Translations under genes and position numbers: made by a program
Origin: Deltaproteobacteria bacterium
Lineage (GTDB): Bacteria; Bdellovibrionota_B; Oligoflexia; Oligoflexales; CAIYRB01
Reading direction: 5' to 3'
DNA length: 51,362 nt
Assembly: GCA_016874735.1 (NCBI GenBank)
Contig: VGTI01000025.1
Coordinates: forward strand, 1-51,362
The notes under the pieces: model-generated
Databases searched by the model: none
What the model was told of the DNA's origin: nothing
Seen by the model: the letters and a program-made list of their open reading frames with translations, nothing else
Part shown: piece after piece, positions 9,872 to 21,116 of the stretch
Layout: each line of letters opens with the position of its first letter
Position numbering within the stretch: position 1 is the first letter of the stretch

Positions 9872-11533
9872 CTAGGGACATTCTGTGCTATTCAGGCCGA
9901 CACCAATACCGTGATCAACAGCCGCCGCATGAATAGCGCAGACGTTATTCCCTTTATTTAACTTGCGGTCCACATTGATTAGCTCGCTATAAACGTCGTC
10001 AAAATTGGTGCCACGATCAAGATACTTCAGAGTAGCCATTACCAACTTAACCATTCCGGATCGTCCGAGCGATGTGCTCCGCGTCAGATCCCATAGCATA
10101 CCAGACAGCGCTTGAGATTTGCGGTGAGCAGGTTCTTTGCTTTTGCTTTCGTCGTTCACATATTTAATCTCACCTGACCGAAGACACGTATTTTCGACCG
10201 TACACTGCGTGCCACCTGAGTCGGTACAAATAGTCTCACCGAGGCAGGCGTCACCTGTTTTTGCGAACACAAAAAAGTCGGCAAGACCCTCGTGCACTGC
10301 TATGAGATCTCTCTCCGTTGCCTTGGGTATGGGTAAGTAACGCGTCACGATGTGATGAGAAAGCTCATGAGCAATCACATCAAAATCAGTAGTCAGATTC
10401 TCGAGTATTGGAGGTCCACCAGCGATTTGCAGCACGTCAGGCACTAGGATCACCGGACCACCGGCCCCACTGTTGCTGGACGGGTTCATATATACCGGGC
10501 CACTGGCACGCTGCGTGGCATCGAAAGTTCGCCGTAATTCCACTTGAGTTTGCGACCAATGAGCCGATTTATCGTAGCCAAGAAACCACTGCATCATGTC
10601 GTTGGCATGCACGAATAAGGTACTTTCGAAGAACCGATCGTCAGTTTTTGGAAACTGGAACACACCCTGGTTGCTGTAGGCTTTCTGTACCCCGTCCGTA
10701 TCAGCAATCAGGTAGTCGTTACAGAGGAAGCCAGACGGCTGCATACCCTCGACCACAATCTCTTCAATCGGTTGACGGGCATTTTGGCGGTAAGTGAAAA
10801 TCTTTGCCGACGCATGTAACATCTGAGCACCGAGCTCTAACACAGAGTCTCCCTGCACAAGCGCTTGATATGGTATCCCACCGACAGAAAAATTGACCTC
10901 TGCAGCAGGGTTCAGTTTGTTACCAACGGAGTACCAACATTGTTCCACCTGTCCAAGAGTGAGTTCGCCCGCGCCATTAACAGCGTTTGCCTTTAAGCCA
11001 GACATGATCTGAACCCTTAGCCTATTTTGGTCCAGATTAGGCATCGGAGCACTCGCGATTTGCGGTCCCTTTGGTATCCGACCCTTAATGCGCGTATCGC
11101 CATCGCCCCAGTGTATAGTCGCATGAAATTGCGAAGAACATAGAGGATAAGTGTCGCTGACAAACTCGATCGGGACATGGCCAGAATCAATCTCCGCTCG
11201 CGCCTGGTAGGAAGCAGCAACCCTCGTACTAATCCCCGGCGGTAGGCGTTCTTCCAATGTCTCAACAACGTCCCGTGGGACTAGGGTACCTAAGTGATCA
11301 GCAGCGTCTGTGAGTGCTAGCAGCGTCGAGGCGCGATAGGGGCGGACTTGGCAGGTTGTCTTGCCATTCAGACCTAGGACGCCACCTTGGTTCGGCGACT
11401 CCGAACTGCTTTTATTGAAGCTACCGCAGGACGCGGCCATAGCACTGACAAAGACCAGACTGACCACGGTGGAACGATGCCTAGTCCTGCCTGGTTTAGC
11501 GATATTCAGATGTAAAAAACGGCGTAAAACCAT
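9872..11533 (-). CDS. Gluzincin metalloprotease lipoprotein
   Basis: This is a 553-residue zinc metalloprotease anchored as a lipoprotein. The signal ends AMAASC (Cys near 36). The zinc site is HELSH (His389, Glu390, His393), with the third ligand likely Glu415 in HEGLADFF; this spacing and the later ALSGMLWDL segment resemble thermolysin/fungalysin-type (M4/M36) enzymes. The first 380 residues are unassigned and may act as a propeptide or targeting region. It carries several cysteines between the zinc site and the C-terminus, suggesting disulfides. No clear ribosome-binding site precedes ATG 11533. It is convergent with the serine protease, with only 23 bases between them. The protease class is secure, the substrate unknown. 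Confidence 0.85.
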   Translation of the reverse strand: MVLRRFLHLNIAKPGRTRHRSTVVSLVFVSAMAASCGSFNKSSSESPNQGGVLGLNGKTTCQVRPYRASTLLALTDAADHLGTLVPRDVVETLEERLPPGISTRVAASYQARAEIDSGHVPIEFVSDTYPLCSSQFHATIHWGDGDTRIKGRIPKGPQIASAPMPNLDQNRLRVQIMSGLKANAVNGAGELTLGQVEQCWYSVGNKLNPAAEVNFSVGGIPYQALVQGDSVLELGAQMLHASAKIFTYRQNARQPIEEIVVEGMQPSGFLCNDYLIADTDGVQKAYSNQGVFQFPKTDDRFFESTLFVHANDMMQWFLGYDKSAHWSQTQVELRRTFDATQRASGPVYMNPSSNSGAGGPVILVPDVLQIAGGPPILENLTTDFDVIAHELSHHIVTRYLPIPKATERDLIAVHEGLADFFVFAKTGDACLGETICTDSGGTQCTVENTCLRSGEIKYVNDESKSKEPAHRKSQALSGMLWDLTRSTSLGRSGMVKLVMATLKYLDRGTNFDDVYSELINVDRKLNKGNNVCAIHAAAVDHGIGVGLNSTECP

Positions 11534-11784
11534 GATATCGCTATCGGCAAAAAAACGAGAAAACTTTAGAGAAAATGAGCACTTCCCTCAAATTTATCTG
11601 TCCGTCACTGTTTCTGTTGACGGTTAGTCCATAGGTAACAGATGTTTAGGTGCGACGGTACCGACTGACGAGTTGAAACAAGCCCTTAGCCAACATTGAC
11701 TTGACAATCCTCCAAATAAAATAAGAAATACCGGCTGTTAAACCGGCGTCACAGTTAAACACCTGGCTTTTCAGGGACTCTCCC

Positions 11785-12408
11785 ATCGGTACTCTGCCTC
11801 CATTCAACATTTCCACTGCTAGGTGCACCAGCTGCCGCCTACTAAAACACCACTGTTTATGTACGGTGTCACCGAAATTAGAACTCACAACACGCGTTGA
11901 AGTCATCATGCATGCGGGGGAGTGGCCACGCAGCAGTAACACCGGACGTCTCGCGACGCTGACTCTTGCGAATGCCGGGATACGCCTTCAGGGTAGTCGC
12001 GACTACCCGCTCGAGACAGATGATTTACTGGCACGCCAAGGGTCTCTGCTCACGCTGTTTCCAGGATGCGGTGCTAAGCCTCTCACGCCGGCATTTATTG
12101 CCACGCTGCCGCGGCCCTTCACACTGATTGTTCCTGACGGCAACTGGGGACAGACCAAGAGCATGATGCGCCGGTTGTCATTTATGCGTCAGACTATCCC
12201 AGTGGAGTTGCCAGGTCCACGCCTATGCCTTAATCGCCCGCGACGTAATATTTTTGCCGATCGGATGAGCACTTTCGAGGCAATCGCCCAAGCCATTGGT
12301 TGTCTCGAAGATCCCGCTGCTGAGGATTATCTGCTCGACTTTTTCGCAGAATTTGTACGCCGCTTCCAACAGATGCGCGGCAAGAGTAGCGAGCTAAATC
12401 CTGCTTAG
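11785..12408 (+). CDS. DTW-domain tRNA aminocarboxypropyltransferase
   Basis: This belongs to the DTW family (TapT/TuaA), which transfers the aminocarboxypropyl group of S-adenosylmethionine to uridine in tRNA. The signatures are HAGEWPRSSNTGRLATL and DGNWGQTKSMMRR, the latter holding the D-x-W motif. The N-terminal cysteine cluster typical of the family (CTSC, then HHCLC) is encoded between about 11824 and 11862, upstream of the first standard start codon (GTG 11866). The frame is open back to 11725 but has no ATG, GTG or TTG there. I place the start at ATC 11785, seven bases after AGGGA; CTG 11794 and ATT 11809 are alternatives. The 3' end abuts the convergent lipoprotein gene with no space. 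Confidence 0.82.
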   Translation: MGTLPPFNISTARCTSCRLLKHHCLCTVSPKLELTTRVEVIMHAGEWPRSSNTGRLATLTLANAGIRLQGSRDYPLETDDLLARQGSLLTLFPGCGAKPLTPAFIATLPRPFTLIVPDGNWGQTKSMMRRLSFMRQTIPVELPGPRLCLNRPRRNIFADRMSTFEAIAQAIGCLEDPAAEDYLLDFFAEFVRRFQQMRGKSSELNPA

Positions 12409-12843
12409 TTACTTGCACCTAAATTTAACCCTGATCCGGTATTGCTCGCCGAGATAGGCATCACCAGATTGGCCAGCTACGGTTGCTATACCTGAAGCGG
12501 CACGTAAACCCTTTGAGGGCATGAATATCGCGCCAGCTGTACCGCCGACTTTAGCAGCATTAGCGAGGCGCTTTTGACGCAGATATTCCTTTTCGCCGCC
12601 CTCGCCAACAAATGCCGTTGATTCCGAAACGATGAACGGTAACTTATCGAACTCGTCGCAGTAACACTCGGCCTGTGCCCGAGCACTACGGTAGGCAACC
12701 TCGCGCTCTTCGCCTTTAGTCACCACGAGGTGAACGCCGGTGGTTGAAGGCCTTACGTCGTCGTGGTGGGCACATGCTCCGATGACCAAAAACATGAGGG
12801 CCAAGGCACTATGCGAGCCTAAATTAGACTTCTGTAGCCACAT
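12409..12843 (-). CDS. Small lipoprotein of unknown function
   Basis: This is a 144-residue exported lipoprotein. The signal ends VIGAC (Cys24). The mature chain has a YCDEF segment, a glycine-rich hydrophobic stretch (VGGTAGAIF, near residues 99-107) that resembles the glycine-zipper segments of envelope lipoproteins, and a C-terminal strand YRIRVKFRCK. ATG 12843 is preceded by GAGGAACCAGTC, a good ribosome-binding site. Its stop codon touches the stop codon of the DTW gene. No family is recognised with confidence. Confidence 0.75.
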   Translation of the reverse strand: MWLQKSNLGSHSALALMFLVIGACAHHDDVRPSTTGVHLVVTKGEEREVAYRSARAQAECYCDEFDKLPFIVSESTAFVGEGGEKEYLRQKRLANAAKVGGTAGAIFMPSKGLRAASGIATVAGQSGDAYLGEQYRIRVKFRCK

Positions 12844-12973
12844 GACTGGTTCCTCTTATAACTACATTCTTAAGGCGACCGATCTCTACGGCCGAGATCA
12901 AAAAGTCCGATTAACATGCGCTATCGGCATTTTTCGCCTAAAACTTGAGAATTTATTAAAAAAGGATTTAATC

Positions 12974-13012
12974 ATGACAACTTACCACGCCTTAACCTAC
13001 TCAGAACTGTAA
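12974..13012 (+). CDS. Very short ORF with strong RBS (12 residues)
   Basis: An ATG at 12974 follows AAAGGATTTAATC and an A+T-rich stretch, and encodes MTTYHALTYSEL before TAA. It lies between the divergent lipoprotein promoter region and the 3' end of the aldehyde dehydrogenase gene. With only 12 codons and no downstream gene on the same strand nearby, it may be a chance ORF. I list it because the ribosome-binding site is better than average. Confidence 0.15.
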   Translation: MTTYHALTYSEL

Positions 13013-13019
13013 CCCTGCC

Positions 13020-14393
13020 TCACCCCATCAGCATCCGCACCAGCTTAACCCTATCCTTATACGGTGGGTATTTTAGTGGGAGATCAAGCATGAACGGTGT
13101 TTTCACCATCGCTTTTTGATGAGAAAAAGTCAGAAAGCTGTGATGCCCATGGTAACGCCCCATCCCACTTGGGCCTTTACCACCAAACGGCAAATGAGCC
13201 GTACCCACGTGCACCAAGGTGTTATTAATGCAGCCACCACCAAAACTAAGTTCATTGACGACGCGGTCTTGAATTTCTTTACGATTGGAAAAAACATAAC
13301 ATGCAAGTGGATTAGGCCGCTGATTAACAATCGCAAACGCCTCATCCAAACTCTCGTATTCCATCACAGGTAGGACTGGACCAAAGATCTCATCCTCCAT
13401 CACTTTGTCGCTCAACTTCACACCGTCGATGATGGTCGGCGCGATGTAGAGCTGCTCACGGTTGTGGTCACCGCCAAGCACTACGTTACCCTCGATCAAA
13501 GCGACGAGACGATCGAAGTGGCGCTGATTGATGATCCGCCCATAATCAGGAGACGACTGCGGCGCCTCGCCATAAAACTGCCTAACTGCCGCTTTCATCT
13601 CAGATAGGAGTTCATTTTTAATCGCTTTAGGCACCAGCAGATAATCGGGTGCAACGCAGGTTTGGCCGCAGTTAAAGAACTTGCCCCACACAACGCGCTT
13701 CGCCGTAATCTTGATGTTAGTGTCGGCGTCGATGATGCAGGGGCTCTTACCGCCTAGTTCTAAGGTCACTGGAGTCAAATGCTCAGCGGCTGCGCGCATC
13801 ACTACCCTGCCAACAGGAATACTGCCGGTAAAGAAAATATGATCGAAGCGCTGCTCGAGCAGATGCGTTGTTTCCTCAACTCCGCCTTGGATCACAGCAC
13901 AGAATTCTGGACTATACGTCTTTTCGATCAGCCTCGTAATCACACTAGCAGTCTCGGTGGCAAGCTCAGACGGCTTCAGCACGCTGCAATTTCCTGCTGC
14001 TATGGCACCAATCAACGGCGCGAGCAGCAGTTGAAAGGGATAATTCCAAGGAGCAATGATGAGCACAACGCCCAATGGTTGAGGATATACGGTACTAAAT
14101 GAAGGTTGGTATACCAAAGGAGTCGGCACGCTCTGCGGCTGAACCCAGGTGGCAAGGTTCGCGCTGATGAGATCGATCTCTTCGTAGACAATACCAACCT
14201 CGCTGCTGTAAGCCTCAAACGGCCCCTTGCCCAAGTCTTTCTTAAGGGCAGCACAAATTTCGCCCTCCATCGATTTAATGGCAGTGCGCAGCTTTTTTAG
14301 TTGCTCGGTCCTGAAGTCGAGGCTGCGCGTCTTGCCGCTAGCAAAATAGTCACGCTGCGCTGCCATGGTGCCAGGAAGATCAAGTTTACTCAT
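13020..14393 (-). CDS. Class-3 type aldehyde dehydrogenase
   Basis: This is an NAD(P)-dependent aldehyde dehydrogenase of the ALDH3-like group, oxidising aliphatic or aromatic aldehydes to acids. Counting from the chosen start, the nucleophile is Cys246 in FNCGQTC and the general base Glu212 in LELGGKSP; IIAPWNYP, EIFGPVLPV and PFGGKGPSGMG are also intact. At 457 residues with the YPPY motif near the C-terminus, it matches the fatty-aldehyde/ALDH3 branch. ATG 14393 has AAGGA eight bases upstream; the ATG three codons earlier overlaps that site and is less likely. It stands alone. The A+T-rich 14470-14550 segment upstream is shared with the divergent von Willebrand A lipoprotein and probably holds both promoters. 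Confidence 0.93.
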   Translation of the reverse strand: MSKLDLPGTMAAQRDYFASGKTRSLDFRTEQLKKLRTAIKSMEGEICAALKKDLGKGPFEAYSSEVGIVYEEIDLISANLATWVQPQSVPTPLVYQPSFSTVYPQPLGVVLIIAPWNYPFQLLLAPLIGAIAAGNCSVLKPSELATETASVITRLIEKTYSPEFCAVIQGGVEETTHLLEQRFDHIFFTGSIPVGRVVMRAAAEHLTPVTLELGGKSPCIIDADTNIKITAKRVVWGKFFNCGQTCVAPDYLLVPKAIKNELLSEMKAAVRQFYGEAPQSSPDYGRIINQRHFDRLVALIEGNVVLGGDHNREQLYIAPTIIDGVKLSDKVMEDEIFGPVLPVMEYESLDEAFAIVNQRPNPLACYVFSNRKEIQDRVVNELSFGGGCINNTLVHVGTAHLPFGGKGPSGMGRYHGHHSFLTFSHQKAMVKTPFMLDLPLKYPPYKDRVKLVRMLMG

Positions 14394-15678: not shown

Positions 15679-15717
15679 GGGAGGGGCAGGCCTTTGCCTG
15701 CCCCTCCCGCTTTTTTT
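15679..15717 (+). terminator. Strong intrinsic terminator
   Basis: A perfect 13-bp G+C-rich stem (15679-15691 with 15696-15708) with a CTTT loop is followed by GC and seven T residues (15711-15717). It ends the VWA lipoprotein transcript and separates it from the receptor cyclase pair. Confidence 0.95.
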
Positions 15718-15859
15718 GCAGTGTTTTGGGGTTGTGCTCCGCTCCTTTAAGTAGCCAACGAAACTCATAAAAAACCTTGATGCTGACTCAAACCTCAAGT
15801 TTTGGGAATGGTCTACCGATTAGCGAGCAGTGGTTCTTTCGATCCAGAGGGGCTTCATC

Positions 15860-18133
15860 TTGGCGCTTCGTCCGGGAAATATCGGGTTAATGATTCGCTC
15901 CTTGGTAGCTCTACCGCTACTGGTGATGCTTACAAACCTCGCACCAGACCTTGCCGAAAAGGACCTTGCGCGCTTTCCCATCGAACAACTCCACGAAAAC
16001 ATTCCCAGACGATCGATCAATGAGGTCATTGGGGCCGAAACAAAGGAATGGCAAGCGCCCAAATTGTACACGATATTCGATCTCACTGTGCACGATCACG
16101 AGATATGGAGACGTATACGGATACCCGCCACCCATACTGCGCGTTCCCAAACTTTCGTCGCCGATGGCGGCACCTTATTTTTTCCCGAAGTTGATTTTTA
16201 TTTAGTGAGAGACGGTCAAATAATCGACCGGAAGTTGACGGGGATGGATCGCCCAATTCAGCCGGGGGCGAAAAAACATGCACGTTCTACATTTCAATTC
16301 GAGCAGAAAACTGGCGAAAATCTTACCCTATATGTCCGTCATGCAAGCAACTTTTTTTACGTGCGACCGCTGGCATTGCATACGTTAGAGCGCGACCTGT
16401 ATCTTTCATGGCTCAAGAAAATAGCTATAGGTCTGGTTGTCGGCTTCCTCATCGGGTTTGTCATCAATAATGTCGCTATTGCCATACAAATGCGTCAAAA
16501 AATGTACGCTGACTATGCATTATTTCTGCTGACGACCTTACTTATGGCCATGTCGTTTAACGGAACTTTTGTGGAATTTTTTGACCACTTCGACTTCGAC
16601 ACATGGATGCGCACAACGCTGCTTCTCTGTTTCGTAATTATTGCTGCATACCTAAATTTCGTCGACTCATTCTTGAATGCGAAGCGAAATTTTCCACGTT
16701 TACACCGCATTCTGAGTCTAGTTCTAAAAACTTCGGCTCTCACGCTCCCAAGCGTGTTCCTCATAAAACCAGGCATTTCTTTCGTACTTCTTGTGTGCGT
16801 TGTCATTGGGATCGCTATCTTCACGATTGCTCTTTGTCTGCCGCGGATCCATATACCGGAGGTTTCTAGGTTTTTCATCGCCGTTTCGGGAGTCCTAATC
16901 GGAGCCATCGTGCAAATCGTGTCTGCACCACGGACCTATACAAGTTTACTCGGCATGGACGGCGTTTTCCTGATTGGAGCTGCCTGGGGTGCACTTTTTC
17001 TCTCGGCAGCGATGGCTAAGCAGGTAGATACCCAGACCACCAAAAGTCAAGTACTGCGTGAAGCCGTCACAAAGAATATTCCAGTAACGGAACTCAACGC
17101 TTACCGAGACGACACCTTTGCAGGACAATTCGCTCCGTCCAAAATGTACGTTACGATCATGTTCGTGGATACAGCTTCGTTTTCCCGAATTGCTGAAAGT
17201 GTCGATGCAAGGACCTTGTTTAACGAGCTTTCTATGAGGTTGGAAGAGATAACGCGCATCATCATCGACCACGGTGGCACCGTCGATCGATCCCTCGGCG
17301 ACGGAATTTTGTGCTTTTTTGGCTACGAATCCGGGCTCATTAACAGCCGTAACCATGTCGGCCAGGCCTTTGAGGCCGCCCTCAAAATCCAAGAAAACTA
17401 CGTCAACAGCATCTACGACACGCTTACGACAGAGACGCCTCGTATACCTTTGCCTATCCGTATAGGTATCCACACCGACAGCGTCACGATTGGGAACATG
17501 GGGTCCTCAATCCACATCGATTTCACCATGGTCGGCAATGGCGTCAATTTCGCCAACCGTTTGGAGACAGCATGCGCGCAGAATAGAATCATGGTCAGTC
17601 AAGATGTCTACCGTGAGCTCAAAGCGCAGAGATACGATGTTGCAGATTTCAACCAGACTCTCATCGCTATCAAACACCAGGTTGAGCTCGTGCCTGCGTA
17701 TGAAATCAACCCTCACAAGAATCGTATGGATAAGCTCGCCGTCGTGAATCGCCATTTCCTGGACCGTATGGGCGACCAGGTGCGTGACGTACGTCACGTT
17801 GTCAACACCGGTGTGCAGTTAACTGCCAGATCACTTTACGGCGACCTAATCATCAGCGACTTCTCGCGCCGCGGCTTTCTCCTGAGGGGGGCAAATTTTC
17901 TGGCTCAAAAATCTCATCTAACGATTGAGCTCAGATCATCCATAGACGCGATCAATCAAAAGTTGGCTGATAGAATGCTAACCACCATTGAAGTTGAGGT
18001 GCGCTGGAGCCGTCGCAGTGGTGACGGCTATGACCACGGCGTCCAGGTGGTTGGTGGACACCCGGATCAATGGGATTTCCTCTACCAAACGCTACGAAGT
18101 TTCACTGCCGCGACAGATGACATGGTGGCTTAG
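15860..18133 (+). CDS. 7TM receptor class III nucleotide cyclase with PilZ-like tail
   Basis: This is a 757-residue membrane receptor that should make a cyclic nucleotide. The order is: one N-terminal hydrophobic segment, an extracytoplasmic beta-rich domain (about 70-170) like 7TMR-DISMED2, seven membrane helices (about 186-385), a class III cyclase domain (about 430-590), and a C-terminal domain (about 640-740) with DFSRRG and VEVRW elements of a PilZ fold. Metal-binding Asp437 and Asp481 are 44 residues apart, as in the family, and Thr556, Asn563 and Arg567 are present. The usual purine-contacting Lys is Arg477. I chose TTG 15860: AGAGGGG precedes it, and the N-terminus then aligns with the downstream paralogue (MALRPGN against MAFNNKN). 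The frame opens earlier, at GTG 15830. Confidence 0.88.
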   Translation: MALRPGNIGLMIRSLVALPLLVMLTNLAPDLAEKDLARFPIEQLHENIPRRSINEVIGAETKEWQAPKLYTIFDLTVHDHEIWRRIRIPATHTARSQTFVADGGTLFFPEVDFYLVRDGQIIDRKLTGMDRPIQPGAKKHARSTFQFEQKTGENLTLYVRHASNFFYVRPLALHTLERDLYLSWLKKIAIGLVVGFLIGFVINNVAIAIQMRQKMYADYALFLLTTLLMAMSFNGTFVEFFDHFDFDTWMRTTLLLCFVIIAAYLNFVDSFLNAKRNFPRLHRILSLVLKTSALTLPSVFLIKPGISFVLLVCVVIGIAIFTIALCLPRIHIPEVSRFFIAVSGVLIGAIVQIVSAPRTYTSLLGMDGVFLIGAAWGALFLSAAMAKQVDTQTTKSQVLREAVTKNIPVTELNAYRDDTFAGQFAPSKMYVTIMFVDTASFSRIAESVDARTLFNELSMRLEEITRIIIDHGGTVDRSLGDGILCFFGYESGLINSRNHVGQAFEAALKIQENYVNSIYDTLTTETPRIPLPIRIGIHTDSVTIGNMGSSIHIDFTMVGNGVNFANRLETACAQNRIMVSQDVYRELKAQRYDVADFNQTLIAIKHQVELVPAYEINPHKNRMDKLAVVNRHFLDRMGDQVRDVRHVVNTGVQLTARSLYGDLIISDFSRRGFLLRGANFLAQKSHLTIELRSSIDAINQKLADRMLTTIEVEVRWSRRSGDGYDHGVQVVGGHPDQWDFLYQTLRSFTAATDDMVA

Positions 18134-20467
18134 ATGGCATTCAATAATAAAAATCCTGTCGTCAAAGCCATCATGACTAATGGCATAGGCTTCGTGATCG
18201 CCATCATCGCCCTGATCGTGCCTGATCTCGAAAATAAGCCGATCGATCCGGTATCCTACGAGTATTTCTACGATGAGTCCGGCTCCCTGAGTATTGCCGA
18301 TGTGATGCGCCTGCCAGCAACTTCGTGGCAAGCCGGAGCTACGAGATCCCTGCCCGAGACCTTGTCAAGACCAGCGGTGACGTGGACTAAAACTGTAATT
18401 AAAGACCTCCGTGCCACCACCGCAGATAGCTACGTCGCCAGCAACAACCACCCTATGCACCGATCTCTGGATTTTTATCTAGTAGAGCACGGCCTAATCG
18501 TCAAAGCATCAAACTTGCAAACCCAGCAATCTGAATCCTATCAAAGTGGGGTATTCGAATTCAATCAGCCTCAAGCCAACGATGCAAAACTATATCTACG
18601 CAGTGTGATTCTTGGCACCACGGCCCCCGCACCACGGATTCTATCGGCCTCAAGTTATGCCGATGAGCAGCGGCGCATCAGTATTTTCGTCGGTTTCGTC
18701 ATTGGGTCCGCCCTCGCCGTTGCCATGTTCAACCTCTTAACTGCGATGATGCTAAGGAAGTCCTCGCAAGCTATGTATGGACTTTACTATCTCGCAACAG
18801 CCTATGTGGCCATGAGTGCGTCCGGGTTCCTCGATCGCATTTACCCTGATTTTATGTACGATATAAACCGGTACTCGCTTTTTTCCTCGTGGGCAGTCAT
18901 CGTAGCAATTTTCGCTATCGAAGCGTTTCGAGCCAAATCAGAAGAATTTGTCGACCGTGACAAAAAAACCTCAAGGCACCTCAACAGTAAATACCTAGCC
19001 ATGACGGCGGTGTCCCTAGTACTTGTGTCCGCAATCAGCCCCAGCATGCGCCCACTTTTGCTAAGTTTTATCATGATCGGCTTTTTAATTTTTGTTCAGA
19101 TAACCCCCTACGCGGACCGAGATTCACGAATTCCCCAGCTACTCAGGATGGGGTTGAGTTGCGGATTTTTTGCAGTCACAGTCTCGATCTTGTCTTGGTA
19201 CCATGTGCTCCGACCATCGATAGTTAGAAATTTATTTTTCGAAGTTGGCTCCCTTCTAAGTTGCTTTTTCAATGCCTCTATACCTGCCCTTATGAGTATG
19301 GAGCTAGCTCGTGATGACGCCAAAATACTGAGACGCTTGCGCCAAAGAGCGATTTCCGGCACATCACCAGAGGCCAAAGACGATCCGGCGCGCGTAGTGG
19401 ATCAGGAAGAACATCAGATCGTTACGATGTTCATCGATATTGCGGCATTTTCGCAATTAGCGGCTCCGCTACCATCGGAGTCGGTCTTCGACGCCTTATC
19501 CGAGCGCCTCAACAACATTGCTGATATCGTCAGAGAGTTTGGCGGCAACATCGACCGATCACTAGGTGATGGACTCCTATGCTTTTTCGGATACCAATCC
19601 CAATTCAGCGCCGCATTCAACACACAGCGAGCCTTTCTGGCTGCGCGTAAGATTCAAGAATCCACAATCATGCAAGTCTTGAACGATCTCGATCAGGGTC
19701 AAAAAAAACTAATTATGCCAGTTCGTGTCGGTATCCATTCATCCAGCATGATTATTGGCAACCTCGGTGGAGCGACGAGGATTGACTTCACAATGATAGG
19801 AGCCGGTGTCAACTTTGCTAGTCGCCTGGAGACTGCGTGCACACCGTTTAAAGTCATGTTTAGCGATGTTTGCTTCGGCCATTTGGTCGAGCTTGGTTAT
19901 GCTGCAGATGAATTTGCACCCGTCGCTATCCATATTAAGCACAGGGCGGATTCTGTGACAGCTTACGAGTTCGATCCATTCAGACAACGCATCGAAGAAT
20001 TGCGACGCGCCGAGAGAGCTTACCTTGAACAGTTAGGCATCAAAGTCATCGATCAACGCTTGGCCGTGAGGGAGTTAGGGACAATCGTTTTGCGTAGCGG
20101 CAACGAGGAATTCGTGGTGCGCGATTTCTCTAGTTTTGGATTCCGAGGAGTGTCGGTCAGACAATTTGGTCGTCAGTCACGACTCATCGTCGAAGTCAGA
20201 GTCAACGATCAAGCATTGCACGAGGAGCTCCGCGCTAAATTCGTCGATAAATTAACTGTGGAAGTACGCTGGAGCCAAAGGAGCACCCCCCATAAGCAGC
20301 GCCTGGCCTCCGGTCAGTCGGAGGGGGCTACGCATGCATTCGAGCACGGCTTTAAAATCATCGGCATCAGCCCCGAGCAACGCCGCTTCCTTTTCGAGCG
20401 CTTATCCCGTCGCTTCGCTGTCGTTGGATCTGATGACGTCGATGGTGTCGCCAAAGAAGTGGCCTAG
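18134..20467 (+). CDS. Paralogous 7TM receptor class III cyclase with PilZ-like tail
   Basis: This 777-residue paralogue has the same architecture as the gene before it: N-terminal hydrophobic helix (about 13-30), extracytoplasmic domain (about 75-175), seven helices (about 183-390), cyclase domain (about 425-585) and PilZ-like tail (about 640-760). Catalytic residues are Asp435 and Asp479, Thr553, Asn560 and Arg564; the purine-contacting Lys is again Arg (Arg475). The PilZ-like part has both family motifs, RLAVR (642-646) and DFSSFG (664-669). Its ATG follows the upstream TAG with no gap and has no obvious ribosome-binding site, so translation is probably coupled. The two are an old tandem duplication, since identity outside the catalytic core is modest. 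Heterodimer formation is possible, because class III sites form at dimer interfaces. Confidence 0.88.
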   Translation: MAFNNKNPVVKAIMTNGIGFVIAIIALIVPDLENKPIDPVSYEYFYDESGSLSIADVMRLPATSWQAGATRSLPETLSRPAVTWTKTVIKDLRATTADSYVASNNHPMHRSLDFYLVEHGLIVKASNLQTQQSESYQSGVFEFNQPQANDAKLYLRSVILGTTAPAPRILSASSYADEQRRISIFVGFVIGSALAVAMFNLLTAMMLRKSSQAMYGLYYLATAYVAMSASGFLDRIYPDFMYDINRYSLFSSWAVIVAIFAIEAFRAKSEEFVDRDKKTSRHLNSKYLAMTAVSLVLVSAISPSMRPLLLSFIMIGFLIFVQITPYADRDSRIPQLLRMGLSCGFFAVTVSILSWYHVLRPSIVRNLFFEVGSLLSCFFNASIPALMSMELARDDAKILRRLRQRAISGTSPEAKDDPARVVDQEEHQIVTMFIDIAAFSQLAAPLPSESVFDALSERLNNIADIVREFGGNIDRSLGDGLLCFFGYQSQFSAAFNTQRAFLAARKIQESTIMQVLNDLDQGQKKLIMPVRVGIHSSSMIIGNLGGATRIDFTMIGAGVNFASRLETACTPFKVMFSDVCFGHLVELGYAADEFAPVAIHIKHRADSVTAYEFDPFRQRIEELRRAERAYLEQLGIKVIDQRLAVRELGTIVLRSGNEEFVVRDFSSFGFRGVSVRQFGRQSRLIVEVRVNDQALHEELRAKFVDKLTVEVRWSQRSTPHKQRLASGQSEGATHAFEHGFKIIGISPEQRRFLFERLSRRFAVVGSDDVDGVAKEVA

Positions 20468-20491: not shown

Positions 20492-20962
20492 TTACTCAAG
20501 TTGCGTTATGAGCGTGTAAACCCCACCTGACTGCGGCATCACATCAACCGACACCACGGAGCTCTTCATGCAGGTGTCGATGGATGAGCCCTGGAAACCT
20601 ATCTCAAAACTGGTCGGGGAACCAAAGGCTCGTCGTTCGTTCTCAAGTGGTTGACACCCCGGCGCAGCACGCACGGCCCATTCCCACGATGCGGCTGCAC
20701 GGTTCAGATCGAGAACCTCTCCTGCGACGTCTACAACGAGGCAATGACTACCAATCATGCCGTCCGCCACCGGAGCCAGGCGACTACATTCTAGAGTCGC
20801 AAGTGAGCTGCCTGAGCTCTCGGCATAGCCTGTGAGCGGTAGTTGTGGCTCTCGGTAGTCCTCTGCTACGGACCAAGTCGTTACCCCCTCCGGAGCCGAA
20901 GCACCGACGGCACATGCCGGCAATAATAACACCAAACCTAAAGTGGAGACTCCTGATCCCAT
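20492..20962 (-). CDS. Small lipoprotein of unknown function
   Basis: This is a 156-residue exported lipoprotein. The signal ends LLLPAC (Cys near 17). The mature part contains four further cysteines (in LECSRL, SHCLV, PGCQPL and DTCMKS), which could form two disulfides in the periplasm, and ends in a strand-rich segment. ATG 20962 is preceded by a very purine-rich GGGGGGAGGGGG ribosome-binding site; the frame opens 18 bases earlier at a TTG that lies inside that site, so the ATG is preferred. It is convergent with the cyclase pair. No family is recognised. Confidence 0.72.
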   Translation of the reverse strand: MGSGVSTLGLVLLLPACAVGASAPEGVTTWSVAEDYREPQLPLTGYAESSGSSLATLECSRLAPVADGMIGSHCLVVDVAGEVLDLNRAAASWEWAVRAAPGCQPLENERRAFGSPTSFEIGFQGSSIDTCMKSSVVSVDVMPQSGGVYTLITQLE

Positions 20963-21116
20963 GGTGCCCCCTCCCCCCAAAGTTGATAGCTTCTAGCTCG
21001 TCACTTCCTGTGCAAATCTTTAATTTATTTTTCTTTTCCAATCATTTCGTGTAGGTAGACGAGACGGTGACACCACTGGTCCAAAGGCGCGTCACCTTTA
21101 TACACGAGATTGGGCA

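Follow-up and report, generated by a model that had tools for sequence, protein, structure and literature searches.

Class III nucleotide cyclases of bacteria are normally homodimers, in which two chains pair head to tail and each active site combines the metal-binding aspartates of one chain with the Asn/Arg of the other, and natural heterodimeric members of the class are known from eukaryotes, among animal and fungal cyclases. In the mammalian transmembrane adenylyl cyclases (C1/C2) and in soluble guanylate cyclase (sGC, alpha/beta), homologous class III domains carry complementary degenerate half-sites, with the metal Asp coming from one domain and the Asn/Arg from the other; C1/C2 are thought to derive from a duplicated bacterial homodimer (PMC9552081). 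The NeoR/RGC1 rhodopsin guanylyl cyclases of chytrid fungi are membrane receptor cyclases that work only as heterodimers, heterodimers complement missing residues, and the catalytic residues of RGC1/2 are complete (PMC8815786). Closest among bacterial proteins are the 7TMR-DISM receptor cyclases, with a DISMED2 sensor, a 7TM domain and a class III cyclase domain, the CHASE2-class III cyclase-PilZ proteins of Oligoflexia, and the PilZ c-di-GMP receptors YcgR, MrkH, BcsA and Alg44.

Here we describe two adjacent genes, W1 and W2, in a contig of 51,362 nucleotides (the window) from an uncultured Pseudobacteriovorax-related Oligoflexia genus, a lake bacterium with named relatives among uncultured lake MAGs and Pseudobacteriovorax/Oligoflexales records. 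Their sequences suggest that W1 and W2 are probably the A and B subunits of one heterodimeric 7TM receptor nucleotide cyclase. Such A/B pairs divide the metal Asp and Asn/Arg as C1/C2 and alpha/beta do, but are encoded by two adjacent bacterial genes, each with a DISMED2-7TM sensor and a PilZ tail, carry class IIIb residues, and in some cases still have both sites. W1/W2 resemble RGC1/2 in their complete catalytic residues, whereas NeoR/RGC1 are eukaryotic guanylyl cyclases with a rhodopsin sensor and no PilZ domain. Compared with the 7TMR-DISM receptor cyclases, exemplified in the same genome by L063 2038-3891 (G000:C69), which lacks a PilZ tail, W1/W2 add that tail and the pairing of subunits. 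The CHASE2 proteins (L101, L106, L056) contain a homologous cyclase-PilZ module but have a CHASE2 sensor and a single gene, mostly keep the substrate Lys (Arg in L106) and retain the canonical RxxxR motif, while the fold and DxSxxG loop that W1/W2 share with YcgR, MrkH, BcsA and Alg44 are combined with an incomplete RxxxR and fused behind a cyclase. The parts are thus already known; in the open-access literature we found no paper that brings together 7TMR-DISM, adenylate cyclase and PilZ, no description of a class III cyclase that is naturally heterodimeric in a bacterium, and nothing on 7TM receptor cyclases of bacteria that occur in pairs with complementary half-sites and carry PilZ tails.

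Both open reading frames are intact and directly adjacent, as the preliminary description had stated, and each encodes a DISMED2 sensor, a 7TMR-DISM domain, a class IIIb cyclase domain that has Asn, Arg and both metal Asp, and, at the C terminus, a PilZ fold (Table 1). Pfam searches, supplemented for the tail by models and homologues, upheld this order in both proteins, the DISMED2 match of W2 lying marginally below the cut-off. The best start of W1 is a TTG at 15860 with a Shine-Dalgarno sequence (SD), AGAGGGG, at 15846-15852, 7 nt upstream; GGTGG just 5′ of the W2 start is a possible SD. A zero gap between the genes recurs in some other A-B pairs, and the remaining pairs have overlaps or short gaps. 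Because a strong terminator separates W1 from the preceding VWA-protein gene and the next open reading frame 3′ of W2 (listed 20492-20980) lies on the opposite strand, W1-W2 is probably a two-gene unit.

Table 1. Features of the W1-W2 locus, in window coordinates.
Feature	Position	Strand	Evidence or remark
Intrinsic terminator of preceding VWA-protein gene	15679..15708	+	13-pair stem and T tract
W1, type A (upstream) subunit	15860..18133	+	ORF, SD, Pfam, tree; longest ORF from 15830
W1 extracytoplasmic 7TMR-DISMED2 sensor	16010..16378	+	Pfam PF07696, 6e-8
W1 seven-helix 7TMR-DISM domain	16424..17020	+	Pfam PF07695, 9e-16
W1 class IIIb cyclase domain	17144..17671	+	Pfam PF00211, 2e-18; aligned to Spirulina CyaC 1wc0
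W1 metal Asp 1 (MFVDTASF)	17168..17170	+	Alignment with 1wc0/3r5g
W1 RSLGD: Arg at substrate-Lys position (17288-17290), metal Asp 2 (17300-17302)	17288..17302	+	Alignment
W1 TMVGNGVNFANR: Thr 17525, transition-state Asn 17546, Arg 17558 (codon starts)	17525..17560	+	Alignment
W1 PilZ tail, RDVR (RxxR) and DFSxxG	17774..18130	+	AF2 pLDDT 91.7, Foldseek, motif table
W1/W2 junction, TAG then ATG	18131..18136	+	Sequence; 0 intergenic bases, same frame
W2, type B (downstream) subunit, same domain chain as W1	18134..20467	+	ORF, Pfam, tree
W2 DISMED2 sensor	18260..18601	+	Pfam 2e-4, 21.5 bits (cut-off 22, so just under)
W2 7TMR-DISM domain	18683..19276	+	Pfam 1e-10
W2 class IIIb cyclase domain, residues D,R,D,T,N,R	19400..19924	+	Pfam 1e-11
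W2 PilZ tail, RLAVR from 20057, DFSxxG intact	20039..20464	+	AF2 pLDDT 86.9, Foldseek, motif table

The PilZ assignment of the tails combines models with homologues. Neither the W1 nor the W2 tail itself gave a Pfam PilZ match, but 54/81 homologous tails singly matched PF07238 (PilZ) with no serious rival family, and a tail profile matched the PilZ domains of the same genome with 96.7% probability (E 4e-10, profile-profile). Against the PDB, the tail sequence profile found only polyubiquitin, which we discarded as an artefact of additive repeats, and a weak match to VCA0042, and a single CHASE2-type tail found nothing useful, so that the fold search decided instead. Almost all of the top 30-38 PDB matches of the two AF2 tail models were PilZ structures: for W1 the top 38 Foldseek matches were all PilZ-containing entries or relatives, and for W2 the best match was the YcgR PilZ domain (5y6g, E 2e-4). 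Both tails are thus predicted to adopt a PilZ fold, bearing out the earlier assignment; since this fold stands, we found neither the different fold nor the unrelated family on which a link to c-di-GMP would have foundered.

Catalytic positions were assigned by alignment to CyaC (1wc0) and CyaB (3r5g). W1 and W2 retain all catalytic residues, including the substrate Thr, except that the substrate Lys is Arg, leaving both half-sites of each protein intact; homodimers may therefore be possible for this pair itself. The substrate position is Lys in most single-copy relatives. Within the motif DRSLGDG, the substrate-recognising Lys is Arg in nearly all tandem copies, across the whole A/B clade.

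Cyclase-PilZ genes are numerous in this genus. A search of the class, and of the phylum over the same 58 genomes, found the module in 40/58 genomes, mostly in one to four copies each, whereas, of the six genomes from this genus, five have 8 to 18 copies and one has 6. The window's genome (G000; 4.65 Mb, 166 contigs) has 18 loci at E 1e-40, largely tandem, so the domain chain that the preliminary description called uncommon is rare in general but common here. At the end of contig C70 of G000, L060 6478-6933 is near-identical to the tail of L053 7531-9726 and is probably its broken continuation in the assembly. Among the relatives scanned with Pfam, the CHASE2-cyclase-PilZ order occurs in L101, L106 and the window genome's own L056. 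The simplest history, whose direction we infer, is that in this genus a DISMED2-7TM sensor was added to the cyclase-PilZ module, which multiplied afterwards.

The tandem arrangement extends well beyond this locus. From six draft genomes of the one genus, which supply all pair data, we collected 20 tandem A-B pairs; these come from 5 genomes and include one degenerate second pair. Wherever flanking sequence suffices to read, no A occurs without B and no B without A; apparent orphans of either type are explained by contig ends that cut them. At L068 1098-3397, a type A gene lies in two overlapping frames (a frameshift or assembly error) and is followed by an intact type B gene. A tree of 95 cyclase+PilZ proteins, built after deleting the six catalytic columns, united all members of pairs with a few solo relatives in one clade (support 100), and gene position changed between A and B only once; when type A was constrained to be a clade, the likelihood exceeded that of the free quick tree (p-AU 0.70). 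This single split indicates that the A/B pair is old and multiplied as a unit, making A and B two homologous, co-inherited subunits. The A and B distance matrices correlated with r 0.93 (0/20000 permutations), a value mostly carried by orthologues. Restricted to paralogous pairs within one genome, the correlation was r 0.66 in G002 (8/720 permutations) and only 0.25 in G000 (125/720 permutations), and owing to this weakness in G000 the within-genome correlation was not relied on as support for pairing.

Residue losses differ between the two types. The transition-state Arg is lost in 12/22 A copies (to Gln, Asn or Ser) and in 0/24 B copies, a difference with a Fisher value of 1.7e-5 when rows are counted and with at least three changes on the tree, and the catalytic Asn is lost in 3/22 A and 0/24 B. 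Conversely, metal Asp 2 is kept in all 21 A copies and lost in 3/24 B copies (Ala, Ala, Ser; one event on the tree), and all three of these B copies (L054, L069, L080) adjoin Arg-less A copies. Metal Asp 1 is lost in no A copy (n = 21) and no B copy of the ordinary pairs. Because the losses are complementary, the site formed by A metals and B Asn/Arg is kept in every complete pair except the second L051 pair, while the mirror site (B metals and A Asn/Arg) is often lost, although it is intact in W1/W2. The complementarity thus appears at the level of the family, the W1/W2 pair itself being complete in both members, and, judged from the alignment, it is the pattern that an obligate heterodimer with a single active site should show. 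All residues are kept in the three true solo relatives (L091, L093, L097), which fits homodimers, since these must keep them all. The heterodimer that the preliminary description had offered as a possibility is now backed by evolutionary evidence from the A/B split, the linkage and these losses.

Other degenerate copies were seen alongside. In L051 (G000:C58, minus strand), a second A/B pair (12162-14384 and 9876-12158) lies directly behind an intact pair. Hardly any catalytic residue is left in either gene (the six sites read ERNTVQ and DNNAKI), but the frames are open and the PilZ tails remain, which makes this a candidate pseudocyclase receptor pair. The neighbouring, divergent 7TM-cyclase-PilZ genes L096 2360-4648 and 4973-7231, with orthologues in L098, have Val for the catalytic Asn in both and Lys for Arg in one, possibly an asymmetric pair of separate origin. 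In G010, the degenerate cyclase-PilZ proteins L108, L110 and L121 (QQVVER, ERDAGR, ETETGK) have no visible partner in the stretches read; as unpaired degenerate cyclases of another lineage, they indicate that decay needs no partner.

Could W1 and W2 instead be products of a tandem duplication that work as independent homodimeric receptor cyclases and share no more than a transcript? Their full sets of catalytic residues, the existence of the solo relatives and the homodimeric habit of bacterial class III cyclases all speak for it, yet in sister pairs of the same arrangement one subunit cannot catalyse alone and the losses are complementary, and one ancient A/B split with unbroken linkage would be unexpected, leaving this explanation unlikely. 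It is more improbable still that many copies are pseudoenzymes and that the family consists mainly of receptors or scaffolds rather than cyclases. The second L051 pair and the universal Lys-to-Arg exchange of the A/B clade point that way, but in all other complete pairs at least one complementary site keeps both metal Asp together with Thr/Ser and Asn/Arg, and W1/W2 retain everything except the Lys.

Another proposal, compatible with the heterodimer, is that the W1/W2 tails bind c-di-GMP and that each protein thereby couples it to the synthesis of cAMP or cGMP. As had been reported, the strings DFS..G, VEVRW and RLAVR are present, but we rejected RLAVR as a c-di-GMP motif on register, its first Arg being the second Arg of canonical RxxxR: the near-invariant Arg of RHVV (W1), RLAV (W2) and RWPV (CHASE2 forms) aligns with that second Arg, and the Asp of DxSxxG follows 22 residues after it, as is also the case in L001. 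W2 has Val at the first RxxxR position (residue 4 before RLAVR), and W1 has a shortened RxxR (RDVR), so that neither protein carries canonical RxxxR before strand 1. Favouring the coupling are the PilZ fold of both tails, the D/NxSxxG loop (DFSRRG in W1 and DFSSFG in W2; retained in 25/25 B and 22/23 A), the occurrence of RxxxR in 26/28 mainly single-copy relatives, and five GGDEF proteins in the window's genome. Weighing against it, RxxxR occurs in only 7/25 B and 0/23 A tails, 22/23 A tails having RxxR instead, and the shifted RLAVR of W2 reads RLSVQ in its nearest orthologue, L065 (+4 Arg to Gln). PilZ domains without the binding residues can, moreover, be non-binding adaptors (PMC7288161). 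The ancestral cyclase-PilZ tail looks able to bind c-di-GMP, judging by its motifs, and binding by the W1/W2 tails is doubtful; of the earlier idea, the PilZ fold has stood, and the link to c-di-GMP is weakened by the out-of-register RLAVR and the shortened RxxR of W1, which makes the coupling, on present showing, rather unlikely.

Under the preferred heterodimer model, a signal would bind either or both of the extracytoplasmic DISMED2 sensors and pass through the 7TMR-DISM membrane helices to the two cyclase domains, the direction being presumed. The cyclase domains of A and B would pair head to tail in a physical heterodimer with active sites at the A-B interface, the one kept by evolution comprising the two metal Asp of A and the Asn/Arg of B; in W1/W2 the mirror site would likewise be intact. 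The activity of the asymmetric cyclase would then depend on both sensors together. The putative product is cAMP from ATP, given the class IIIb Thr, with Arg in place of the usual Lys. The PilZ tails may serve as fused secondary regulators: in the single-copy relatives, whose tails have the full c-di-GMP motif, they probably gate the cyclase by c-di-GMP, whereas in the pairs the diverged tails (RxxR in A, variable in B) may have another ligand or a role in pairing.

Taking these observations together, we lean, by a modest balance, towards the view that a single homodimeric cyclase-PilZ receptor gave rise in this genus to a whole set of 7TM receptor cyclases that are obligate heterodimers, in each of which two extracellular sensors and two divergent PilZ regulators act on one asymmetric enzyme. 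If true, the genus would offer a bacterial parallel to the C1/C2 division of labour of eukaryotes, with both intact (W1/W2) and half-dead pairs present in one genome. The genus retains a solo receptor, an intact pair, a pair with one dead half-site, a pair with complementary lesions and a fully dead pair, and because such intermediate steps survive together in one bacterial genus, the route to asymmetry is directly testable. With two different sensors, one enzyme could act as a coincidence detector, and through the cyclase-PilZ fusion found across the lineage a single chain could connect c-di-GMP with cAMP or cGMP.
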